A stretch of 64,000 nucleotides of DNA, from positions 52,952 to 116,951 of the forward strand of contig JAJEDE010000003.1 in the NCBI GenBank assembly GCA_022821645.1, in the 5' to 3' direction. Both the position numbers and the translations under genes were made by a program. Under the pieces are notes generated by a model, which searched no databases, had not been told where the DNA came from, and saw nothing but the letters and a program-made list of their open reading frames with translations. Shown piece by piece: positions 60,283 through 64,000 of the stretch (positions are counted from its first letter, which is position 1; every line of letters begins with the position of its first letter). Source of the stretch: Chloroflexota bacterium. Its GTDB lineage: Bacteria > Chloroflexota > UBA11872.

Positions 60283-60340
60283 CCGGCGGGGGCCGCGCAG
60301 CGTGGTCCCGGAGTGTATTGGGGCGTGGGGGTGAAGGGGG

Positions 60341-60394
60341 AACCCTCTCTCGCCAGCCCGACCCCTTAAGGGGTCGGGCTGGCGAGAGAGGGTT
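60341..60394. repeat. Perfect 54-bp palindrome (27-bp arms, no loop)
   Basis: The arm AACCCTCTCTCGCCAGCC... is followed directly by its exact reverse complement, meeting at CCTTAAGG. Every one of the 27 bases pairs. It is followed by TTTT on the plus strand, so it could act as a terminator, but no plus-strand gene ends there and it lies 120 nt upstream of a minus-strand operon start. A mobile or REP-type palindromic element is more likely. The same ACCCTCTC core appears in the two REP-like copies near 61.2-61.3 kb. Confidence 0.95.
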
Positions 60395-60720: not shown

Positions 60721-60859
60721 TTCACGGTTCCCGCCCAATGTGTTCAGTTTTGCGGCCAATGTGTCCACTTTTCAGGCGAATGTGTCCGGTTTTCGGGCGA
60801 ATGTGTCCCGTTTTCGGGCGAATGTGTCCACTTTTTGAGCCGATGTGTCCAGTGAGTCC
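60721..60859. repeat. 21-bp tandem repeat, six units plus a partial
   Basis: Units end in AATGTG and read TCC-NN-TTTT-CGGGCG-AATGTG: starts at 60743, 60764, 60785, 60806 and 60827 are exactly 21 bp apart, preceded by a 22-bp degenerate unit at 60721 and followed by a partial unit at 60848. The middle units (60785, 60806) differ at only two positions. Because 21 is a multiple of 3, every frame gives a heptapeptide repeat (for example CVRFSGE on plus, GHIRPKT on minus), which explains several short ORFs in the track. There are no spacers, so it is not a CRISPR array. Confidence 0.92.
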
Positions 60860-61202: not shown

Positions 61203-61340
61203 GACCCCTCACCCTGCCCTCTCCCCCAGGAGAGGGATTAAGACAGCGTTCCACCTATGGGTCTGTCCAGCACCGCTGACCAGATCGTGTCGGTAGGGTT
61301 CGACCGGAAGACTCTCACCCCAACCCTCTCCCAGGCAGAA
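61203..61340. repeat. Two REP-like copies with a short hairpin
   Basis: Copy 1 (about 61208-61236) is CTCACCCTGCCCTCTCCCCCAGG and forms a hairpin CCCTCTCC-CCCA-GGAGAGGG at 61217-61236. Copy 2 (about 61313-61334) is CTCACCCCAACCCTCTCCCAGG without the right arm. These near-identical strings, 105 bp apart, resemble dispersed extragenic palindromic sequences. The rest of 61191-61493 shows no gene. Confidence 0.7.
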
Positions 61341-61493
61341 GGAGAAGACGGCGGCCCGGCGTGGGGGATGCCGAAGGTTCTCAGCCGATGCTGGAGGTTC
61401 GCGGGTAGAATTCTGTAAGGGCGGACCTGTTCCGAGTACTGGCCTACGCCGATCGATCGGCAGGGTTCAGGGATCCTCGTCAAGGAGGAACCG

Positions 61494-61673
61494 ATGGCGA
61501 CAGAAGCGGAACGCCTTGCCCGAGTGGAAGGGTCCTACAACCACCTTGCGACGAAGGCCGACCTAGCGAATCTCGAAACTCGTCTGACGACGTGGTTTGC
61601 CGGGCTTCTTCTCCTGGTGGTCATCAACGTGCTGGGCACGGTGACGGGAATTCTGATCGCGCTGCTTGGGTAG
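61494..61673 (+). CDS. Small single-span membrane protein with N-terminal coiled coil
   Basis: 59 codons, too short for the ORF track. ATG 61494 follows an ideal ribosome-binding site (AAGGAGGAACCG). The sequence MATEAERLARVEGSYNHLAT begins a charged amphipathic helix (ATKADLANLETRLTTW), followed by one hydrophobic span (FAGLLLLVVINVLGTVTGILIALL) and the stop. This resembles small hypothetical proteins with a coiled coil plus one transmembrane helix that occur widely near mobile DNA and TA genes. Function unknown. The strong RBS argues it is expressed. Confidence 0.75.
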   Translation: MATEAERLARVEGSYNHLATKADLANLETRLTTWFAGLLLLVVINVLGTVTGILIALLG

Positions 61674-61899
61674 CCGTTGGATCCGGGAGCTTAGGTTAGC
61701 GATCCTTCTCCGGAGATCGCCTTCAGGGCGCTAGCTGAGCAAGCCAGCTTGTCGTCCGATCCCAACATGACTTCGTCATGGAAGATGAGTGCTCCGAGAA
61801 GACTCCAACGGAACGAACCAGCAGCCGAAACTGCAGTGAAGACTCTCCCGGTTGGCACGACCTTGCACCGATCCCCTCAAGGCTGACGCTCACACAGTA
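61674..61899. other. Gene-free junction before the AT-rich island
   Basis: The left part is GC-rich and holds an imperfect hairpin GCGATC...GATCGC (61699-61720) and CATGAC-TTC-GTCATG (61766-61780). From about 61.85 kb the base composition falls sharply towards AT and the minus-strand Shedu gene ends. Neither hairpin has a U-tract strong enough to call a terminator. Confidence 0.5.
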
Positions 61900-63405
61900 T
61901 CAGAATGGCAATTCAATTGAGTCTGAATCTGTGACCTTCTCCAGAGGTGGCGAAGAAAGCAGGTCTCTCAGACTCGTCAGTCGAAGCAATAGTTCATCAA
62001 AGGTGATGATCTGCACATTCTTAGAATTACCCCGAAAGAGCTCGAACGATTGTTGCTTCGCTATATCATCCGGCATGGTCCCGATGATCAGGCAGCAACT
62101 AACAGCAAAGGATTCAATGTCATATAGTCGACTGTTTACCTTGATTTGCGAGCTTTCCTTTTCAAAGTTGTTCTTCTGATTAAGCGCCTGATTGACAGCG
62201 CCTACCAGATATCTGGTAGGTGGAAACACAGAGCCATGATAGGGAGCCTTGTTGAGCAATTTCGTTCCTGGAGTCTTGATTTCTACAATTGCACAATTGT
62301 TGGTCAAACTGTTTTTCACAAGATAGTCGGCGATTGTCTCACCGGATCCTGAGATTGTATGACCACCGACCGATGCTTGCTCACTCACCTTTACAATCGG
62401 ATAGCCAAAGGCTAAACTCAATATGAATGAATTGACATTTAGAAACTCCTGCCATTCTCGCTCTGGAGTCTTTTCTTGCATCATCTCCTGAAAGCGATCA
62501 ATCAGAGCCTCAAGAGTAACAAGCTCCATGTCAGCTCTAATGGTTGCGATCTTCTGAGGTTTTTCTGAGACCATTTTTCTAGTATTCTTTACGAAAATAT
62601 CGAGCATCTCGTCTTGTTCACTTTGCGTGAGAGCTTCATTTCCACGTATGGCAACTTCAGTGAGCATCCGTCGTAAGGGACTTCTGCCGGTCGCTATCGG
62701 AATTAAAGGCTGGCCTGTTTTTCGTGCGAAAAGATTGTGAGTGGCGGCAGTGTTAACAGATCGTGCTGCAGTCTGGGAGTGGCGGACGGTCCTATCGATC
62801 GTCTTTCTAGCCTCTTCAAGATCAGCGACTGAAATGTAGAACTTGCTATCCGCAGCTTCAATGCTAGTTTCTCGTCGATCTGACACTACAATCTCTGTGC
62901 AATCTGAGAGCGACTCCACTGCGTCAATTATGAACCGGTAGGGTCGCGTGAACCCTAACCCATAGTCATAGTCCTTTATGAAACACGACGGGAGTTCTTC
63001 CAAGATCATCATTACCAATTCTTGATCCGTGTATCCGAAATCGACGACCATTTCCTGGTTAACTCTTACTTCTGGAAATACGATTTCTTGGATGTTCGAT
63101 CCAGATGCTGGCCAGTTTTCTATAGTTATCGACTTTATTTTGGTATATTTTTGCTGTAAAAAGTCACCGGGATTCGCCACACTCGGAAATGCATTGATGG
63201 GGAAGATCATCAGTTTCTGTTTGCGACGATCGACTTGGAGCAACTTAATCCTAACATCGCTGCGGTTCGGGTTCTCAATGTCTGCCTGCTTCAAGCGTTC
63301 GGTCGACGGAGTGTAAAAAACGTCAAAACTAGCTGAAGATGGTCGTTCTATAACAAGTGAACCCTCATCGTCGTAGTCATATGCGCCAGTAAAGAGTCGA
63401 GGCAT
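61900..63405 (-). CDS. sduA: Shedu-type anti-phage defence protein (DUF4263 nuclease)
   Basis: 501 residues. The C-terminal half matches DUF4263: the entry motif EREWQEFLNVNSFIL (315-329), then a PD-(D/E)XK core with Asp360 (TIADYLV), Glu375-Ile-Lys377 (AIVEIKTPG) and a following Gln (VNQALNQ, about 406). The N-terminal ~300 residues are a variable sensor-like region, as in known Shedu proteins. Shedu is a single-gene phage-defence system acting as a nuclease. Codon use is AT-rich compared with all neighbours, indicating recent horizontal acquisition. Upstream is GGAG at 10 nt from ATG 63405; no partner gene is needed. Confidence 0.8.
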   Translation of the reverse strand: MPRLFTGAYDYDDEGSLVIERPSSASFDVFYTPSTERLKQADIENPNRSDVRIKLLQVDRRKQKLMIFPINAFPSVANPGDFLQQKYTKIKSITIENWPASGSNIQEIVFPEVRVNQEMVVDFGYTDQELVMMILEELPSCFIKDYDYGLGFTRPYRFIIDAVESLSDCTEIVVSDRRETSIEAADSKFYISVADLEEARKTIDRTVRHSQTAARSVNTAATHNLFARKTGQPLIPIATGRSPLRRMLTEVAIRGNEALTQSEQDEMLDIFVKNTRKMVSEKPQKIATIRADMELVTLEALIDRFQEMMQEKTPEREWQEFLNVNSFILSLAFGYPIVKVSEQASVGGHTISGSGETIADYLVKNSLTNNCAIVEIKTPGTKLLNKAPYHGSVFPPTRYLVGAVNQALNQKNNFEKESSQIKVNSRLYDIESFAVSCCLIIGTMPDDIAKQQSFELFRGNSKNVQIITFDELLLRLTSLRDLLSSPPLEKVTDSDSIELPF

Positions 63406-63531
63406 TCAGCGCGTCTCCATCTTCTTTTAGTAAGTGTGTAGTCGAAGTGAATTGCGTATCACGGCTTCAAGGTGCAATGACGGGCAGGCCGACGTGGCGG
63501 TAGTGCGGATCCATCGTACCGGCTATTCCAG

Positions 63532-63894
63532 CTAGCTTAACCCTGACTGCATTGTCCCAGCTTGGACAGCGCAGGCGGTTCGCGCACGTTTCTCAGAGTA
63601 CTGGTCTCCGAGGTCGTGCATCCGCCGCCTGCTTGTTTGGTCGAGACTGGCGAACGACACTGGCAGTTGACGGATGTCTGATGCAGACGGAGTCTGCGGG
63701 CTCGGCGTTTGGATCTTGAGAGTGGTGGTCCAGAGCGAGGACTGTCTCGGAATGTTGGATGCCGCTGTGTTGCGGTTCGACACGGGCTCCGCCGAACTAC
63801 GGTCCGGCTCGCCACGTGTGGTTCGACGTCGCTCTCCGTAGTACAGGTTCTTGGCCTGAATGAAGACGTTCGAGTCGAGCAGATACCTCGTCAA
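63532..63894 (-). pseudogene. Remnant of a DUF4411-type PIN-domain toxin gene
   Basis: From TTG 63894, overlapping the upstream stop by 4 nt (TTGA), the product begins MTRYLLDSNVFIQAKNLYYG, the exact opening of DUF4411 PIN proteins (first catalytic Asp in LLDSN). After about residue 21 (near 63832) the expected FDFCPAFW is replaced by Arg/Thr/Ser-rich sequence without PIN acidic motifs, and the remaining 100 codons look non-coding. The gene was thus cut by a rearrangement at about 63.83 kb. Confidence 0.7.
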
Positions 63895-63998
63895 CCCAAT
63901 ACGCCTGCTTCTCGCCCGAGGTTGTTGAAGGTTTCGAGTTTCGAGACGCCGACCATGCGAAAGGCATCGCGGTAGAGGGTGTGTCCTTCACGAGTGCT
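63891..63998 (-). CDS. C-terminal end of an ImmA/IrrE-like metallopeptidase or XRE antitoxin, cut by window edge
   Basis: The minus strand from 63998 reads STREGHTLYRDAFRMVGVSK, then LETFNNLGREAGVLG, then a stop at 63891-63893. The YRDAFRMVGVS and FNNLGRE pattern fits the C terminus of ImmA/IrrE (COG2856) proteins, the usual upstream partner of DUF4411 PIN genes. The stop overlaps the PIN TTG start. Only 35 residues are visible, and the active-site HExxH lies outside the window, so the family call leans on context. Confidence 0.5.
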   Translation of the reverse strand, partial: STREGHTLYRDAFRMVGVSKLETFNNLGREAGVLG

Positions 63999-64000
63999 CT

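Follow-up and report, generated by a model that had tools for sequence, protein, structure and literature searches.

Two Shedu (SduA, DUF4263) nucleases serve as references for the gene considered here, that of Escherichia coli (EcSduA; PDB entries 8ps4 and 8ps5), a DNA-end-sensing type I Shedu, and that of Bacillus cereus (BcSduA; 8ti8, 8ti9 and 8tia). EcSduA is a tetramer, the N-terminal clamp of which binds DNA ends and sets free the nuclease, which nicks at a constant distance, and phage T6 escapes it through mutations of its UvsW helicase; further specificity determinants are suspected for Shedu (reviewed in PMC12904381). Another known system bears on what follows: the partners of E. coli single-strand binding protein (SSB) recognise the C-terminal Phe of its tip, the carboxylate and the acidic residues, while the penultimate Pro is needed (PMC10164576).

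The stretch of DNA that we analysed (the window, 64,000 nucleotides from a Chloroflexota bacterium) contains an AT-rich island which, in all likelihood, is one acquired, putative anti-phage Shedu gene of the subfamily described by the PADLOC profile PDLC00384, carried as exchangeable cargo between a small open reading frame (ORF) and a DUF4411-IrrE toxin-antitoxin pair, the toxin gene of which has been cut. This reading rests on homology and the intact active site of the gene product, on the foreign composition and patchy distribution of the gene, and on the existence of like slots with other cargo.

A Shedu gene foreign to its host by composition

The gene, sduA, lies on the minus strand (61900..63405) as an ORF of 1,506 bp with an ATG start and no internal stop, coding for 501 amino acids. 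The earlier note had assigned it to the Shedu (DUF4263) family, and the HMM searches bear this out: PADLOC SduA (PDLC00384) covers residues 20-492 with nearly its whole profile (474 bits, E 1.2e-142) and Pfam SduA_C (PF14082) covers residues 313-473 (81.4 bits for a cut-off of 27, E 1.1e-22); NCBIfam gave no match for the protein. Significant matches in a fold search of the PDB were Shedu entries only (Foldseek, 8ti9_B, E 1.3e-12, TM-score by target 0.84). Residues 313-473 form the PD-(D/E)XK nuclease domain (61987..62469, minus strand), which aligns with 8ti8/8ti9 and 8ps4 and contains D360, E375 and K377; its REWQEFL motif comprises E315, W318 and Q319. In 15 plasmid and Chloroflexota members, E294, E315, W318, N325, D360, E375, I376, K377, G402, Q406, Q410, R458 and the TFDEL motif are invariant, and when relatives from viral contigs are added E315, Q319, D360, E375 and K377 still are, so that the core residues named beforehand (D360, E375 and K377), and Q406 and Q410 with them, prove invariant or nearly so. 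The catalytic-motif Glu of 8ti8, which is Ala in the 8ti9 sequence, aligns with E375. The protein is thus a member of the Shedu family with an intact active site, invariant in 13-15 relatives. No partner gene appears in the visible context, in keeping with a single-gene character.

An AlphaFold model built from a 13-sequence alignment (mean pLDDT 72, pTM 0.43), which replaced a model from a two-sequence alignment (pLDDT 35), places a beta-rich domain at the N-terminus, followed by a long helix and by the nuclease core. The N-terminal part, residues 1-282 (62560..63405, minus strand), thus consists of the beta-rich domain followed by the helix (193-230), with pLDDT values of 80-90 over much of 12-190 and of 50-60 over 200-290. 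It had been proposed that this part might be a new variant. This is not supported, because the part belongs to a type that is already modelled: PDLC00384 spans residues 20-492, and plasmid proteins with the annotation Shedu immune nuclease align from residue 1-28 to residue 469 at 36-46% identity. Conservation is lower there than in the core, as witnessed by the Methylocystis homologue (36% identity against 55%). By analogy with other Shedu proteins (PMC12904381), this N-terminal part may act as a sensor of phage or of DNA ends. It has no significant sequence similarity to those of EcSduA or BcSduA, and since the sequence matches to these proteins are restricted to the C-terminal part, DNA-end sensing may not carry over.

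Composition sets the gene apart from its host. GC content falls from about 0.63 to 0.44-0.47 across about 61.9-63.4 kb and is back to 0.59 at the end of the window, while the host mean is 0.662 (SD 0.028; 1751 overlapping 1.5-kb windows, about 464 kb of the genome, sampled as twenty 20-kb stretches plus the window). The GC of sduA itself is 0.452; its third positions stand at 0.47, those of the adjacent Gfo/Idh oxidoreductase gene at 0.88. The abrupt drop coinciding with one gene, as initially noticed, is therefore found both in the profile and against the genome-wide background: the island stands at 45% where the sampled host stands at 66%, and outside it the sampled GC goes below 0.55 at one place only (L075:14501-16250, minimum 0.543), no other sampled window being below 54%. 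The shift thus exceeds sampled genome-wide variation. Shedu relatives elsewhere are often more AT-rich than their surroundings too, by up to about 0.11, so that the shift is in part typical of the family; that observed here (0.20) nevertheless exceeds any of theirs. We conclude that sduA is foreign by composition and was most likely acquired horizontally.

The distribution of the gene is patchy. Homologues were found in 121 plasmid records, in 78 cases over 80% or more of the length of the protein, with a highest identity of 46%; phage records gave no match. Within the genus, one of the 12 other members, the Chloroflexota isolate RHO3_bin_23 (G011), has a copy (65% identical, GC 0.47), and 400 genomes of the phylum yielded two full-length members. 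Relatives in viral and genome contigs were found with a 15-sequence alignment; a single protein or a pair as query gave none, or only G011. Taken by itself, the gene is one more member of a known family, from a poorly studied Chloroflexota genus.

A C-terminal tail resembling that of SSB

Beyond the nuclease core, residues 488-501 (KVTDSDSIELPF; 61900..61944 with the stop, minus strand) form a tail ending in TDSDSIELPF, which is predicted to be disordered (pLDDT 31-37) and resembles the acidic tip of SSB: acidic residues are followed, within the disordered stretch, by a hydrophobic residue, Pro and Phe-COOH. The sole SSB gene that we found in the host genome ends in DDEISPDDLPF, where the Shedu protein ends in DSIELPF. 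Two Chloroflexota Shedu proteins of another subgroup, those of G267 (L007) and G383 (L008), end in EFDELPF and DPDDLPF, beside SSB proteins of their own genomes that end in DLDELPF and DLDDLPF respectively. Proteobacterial Shedu tails read DTVPF or DDVPF; that of a Citrobacter relative, TLDTVPF, is closer than the present one to the SSB of E. coli. The PF tail is missing from the closest plasmid relatives, and it is lacking in the Shedu proteins of two further Chloroflexota genomes (G269 and G327), the SSB of which has the tip.

How such a protein might work can be sketched in several steps. By analogy with EcSduA, where the relevant DNA consists of DNA ends, the Shedu oligomer would inhibit itself as long as its N-terminal part has not bound the right DNA; thereafter the PD-(D/E)XK core would cut the invading molecule. 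In a less certain step, the disordered DSIELPF tail would imitate the SSB tip and dock the nuclease on the replication and repair proteins that bind this tip, and docking via the partners of SSB would bring the nuclease to replicating phage DNA. More generally, we tentatively propose, as a possibility somewhat short of probable, that several Shedu proteins repeatedly gained a tail copying that of the host SSB, the nuclease being either delivered via the SSB network (RecG, RecO, PriA and similar proteins) to phage DNA undergoing replication or recombination, or competing with SSB for its partners. No report of a Shedu tail of the SSB type was found in the literature searched, the primary Shedu papers lying outside that search; if true, delivery via the SSB network would be a step not described for Shedu in that literature. 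A host-matched tail of this kind would offer an explanation, open to direct testing, of how a defence nuclease might reach phage DNA and leave the chromosome unharmed.

There is an even chance, in our judgement, that the ELPF ending is not functional mimicry, and that we are looking at acidic-Phe tails arisen by chance, or at an autoinhibitory peptide lying on the protein's own surface. Consistent with this, 35 of the 44 relatives have no PF ending, the excess of acidic residues before the tip is modest (3.1 Asp or Glu in ten residues, against 2.0), and in SSB itself the tip is known to fold back onto the OB domain of the same protein (PMC10164576). Chance, however, would have to account for PF endings in nine of the 44 distinct Shedu proteins where composition predicts 0.1, for their absence from all 642 host-background ORFs of at least 200 amino acids (a six-frame set, spurious ORFs included), and for the fact that in the plasmid and viral loci all four PF-ending ORFs are Shedu proteins. 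It would also have to do so repeatedly: on the tree of Shedu proteins the PF tail needs seven changes, at least six of which are forced by well-supported branches. In Chloroflexota, moreover, tails in ELPF, DELPF and DDLPF stand beside SSB tips in DDLPF or DELPF.

Exchangeable cargo in a recurrent slot

Whatever the role of its tail, the Shedu gene occupies a slot that recurs in the genus. The left edge is marked by a 59-amino-acid coiled-coil/transmembrane ORF (61494..61673, plus strand), within a region of homology with other slots that covers 61206-61676. It belongs to a multi-copy family, with 15 copies in this genome, present in 12 of 13 genomes of the genus and in 10-21 copies in most of them. 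The cargo interval as delimited by blastn (61677..63835) is absent from the locus-A slots of sister species and from another copy in this genome, on contig C17. To its right are found the first 20 or so codons of a gene for a DUF4411 PIN-type toxin (63836..63895, minus strand), truncated by the cargo whereas the C17 copy is intact, then the 3' end of an HTH/IrrE-peptidase (Peptidase_M78) gene (63898..64000, minus strand), cut by the end of the contig. As the contig ends exactly at position 64000 of the window, the right flank is visible only in part.

Thirteen close copies of the small ORF, when examined, fell into two recurrent sites, A (loci L112, L114, L110, L109 and L045) and B (L046, L108, L111, L113, L115 and L116). 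Site A reads epimerase, small ORF, cargo, PanE and metallo-hydrolase. It is empty in G012, where the common PanE-side sequence resumes about 90 bp past the small ORF; elsewhere it is filled with Mrr, DUF4411 and an HTH-IrrE peptidase (G006), with Mrr and a PIN toxin (G007), with an HsdR-N-like protein and HTH-IrrE (G004) or, on C17 of the window genome, with Mrr and DUF4411. The Mrr genes of these alternative cargoes match as Mrr_cat plus HARE-HTH, and further defence matches are to PADLOC PDC-S02/type IV. At site B, a TSUP-like permease stands on the left and the cargo is a type II methylase with a XamI nuclease, a trypsin-like protease, or uncharacterised AT-rich genes. The copy in the window shares 61206-61676 with site A on its left, and on its right 63836-64000, which spans the start of DUF4411 and the end of the IrrE gene, is 98.8% identical over 165 bp to the end of C17; here, therefore, Mrr and most of DUF4411 have given way to about 2.16 kb of Shedu cargo. 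The Shedu gene is, in short, exchangeable cargo, and its place is taken in sister species by other defence genes. Since genes of restriction, of toxin-antitoxin pairs and of uncharacterised kinds replace one another there from species to species, the slot offers a way to find more defence genes in the genus. Low GC accompanies some of the copies: within 3 kb of four of the 15 small ORFs of the window genome, GC is below 0.52 over a stretch of 1 kb, which is the case for none of the sampled background positions.

Several cargo genes of site B have no Pfam match. These AT-rich or uncharacterised genes, coding for 396, 375 and 208 amino acids (L046:6236-7426; L115:123000-136500 of G007:C3), are candidates for new defence genes; that of 396 amino acids has a weak PADLOC PD-T7-5 match (2e-5). 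A gene for an AT-rich 757-amino-acid protein with PD40 beta-propeller repeats (L052:6961-9234) lies beside both another copy of the small ORF and lepA.

In both the window genome and G011 the small ORF is downstream of the Shedu gene and convergent with it. Identity between the two genomes at the DNA level is 72.6% in the ORF region and 70.8% in the Shedu gene, while another common region (L046 against L108) reaches about 87%. This comparison of sequences suggests that the small ORF and the Shedu gene travelled together, or that they have in common an older, separate history. Just inside the right junction lies a repeat (63773..63816, plus strand; about 45 bp) that is dispersed throughout the genus and may have helped recombination. 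Two other modes of insertion were considered and rejected, namely site-specific integration at a tRNA gene, as there is no tRNA or tmRNA gene in the window, and a transposon with terminal repeats, as the flanking repeats are weak and chance-like and there is no transposase. Other features of the window may be mentioned in passing: a short tandem-like array of AATGTGTCC...TTTTC units (60737-60853), also present at L057 and L065 of the genome; a dispersed palindromic repeat, CTCTCGCCAGCCCGACCCCTTAAGGGGTCGGGCTGGCGAGAG (60340-60390), which recurs at several places in the genome; and a long run of glycosyltransferase-like and polysaccharide-synthesis-like genes (29025-50275).

It might be argued that the slot is an artefact of mis-binning, the window contig (C16) coming from another strain and its likeness to C17 reflecting a mixture of strains. 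The estimated contamination of the assembly is 7%, the ends of C16 and C17 are near-identical over the 165 bp mentioned above, and the sole PanE gene of the genome starts contig C1, the first 150 bases of which are the other end of IrrE, so that the three contigs converge on a part of IrrE that the assembly lacks; this means two copies of IrrE in the genome or a bin of mixed strains. We nevertheless find the artefact rather unlikely: the copy in G011, from an independent assembly, also adjoins the small ORF, the slot, filled differently, is found within single contigs of sister genomes, and C16 and C17 are wholly different upstream of the small-ORF region. A mixture of strains would, in any event, alter which strain owns the gene, not the nature of the slot.

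Comparison with known systems

The nearest counterparts of this Shedu gene are found on proteobacterial plasmids. The proteins of Methylocystis rosea (pGW6_2), Roseicitreum antarcticum and Neotabrizicola shimadae align over their full length at 43-46% identity with all catalytic residues alike, and differ in being devoid of the PF tail and in their setting: the genes of these three closest plasmid homologues belong to type I restriction operons, where hsdS and hsdR flank them, and that of a fourth comes after hsdS. The subfamily could therefore need a partner, absent here or lost with the end of the contig. That the gene is a former type I restriction accessory in need of a restriction partner, left alone and now inactive or in another role, is nonetheless improbable, as other Shedu members stand alone or beside ATPases, and both Chloroflexota copies (window and G011) are intact: at an overall identity of 65% they have retained the catalytic residues, and no hsd gene is nearby in a view that ends, for the former, at window position 64000.

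EcSduA resembles the protein analysed here through its core, which is matched by the family profile (8ps4, E 3e-9), and differs from it in having no C-terminal tail. A Foldseek alignment covers nearly the whole chain with a probability of 1.00, but at 15% identity and with a full-chain rmsd of 25 A, so that a resemblance to the N-terminal clamp of EcSduA is not established. BcSduA shares the PD-(D/E)XK core with its D...E-x-K and Q positions, and matches residues 282-483 (phmmer E 4e-29, Foldseek E 1e-12); the N-terminal part is unmatched by sequence, and the BcSduA chain stops at the last helix of the core, hence without a tail. As for the C-terminal tip of bacterial SSB, the Shedu protein has no OB fold, and its ELPF is one residue off the DDLPF core; what the two have in common is a disordered acidic stretch ending in Leu-Pro-Phe-COOH.
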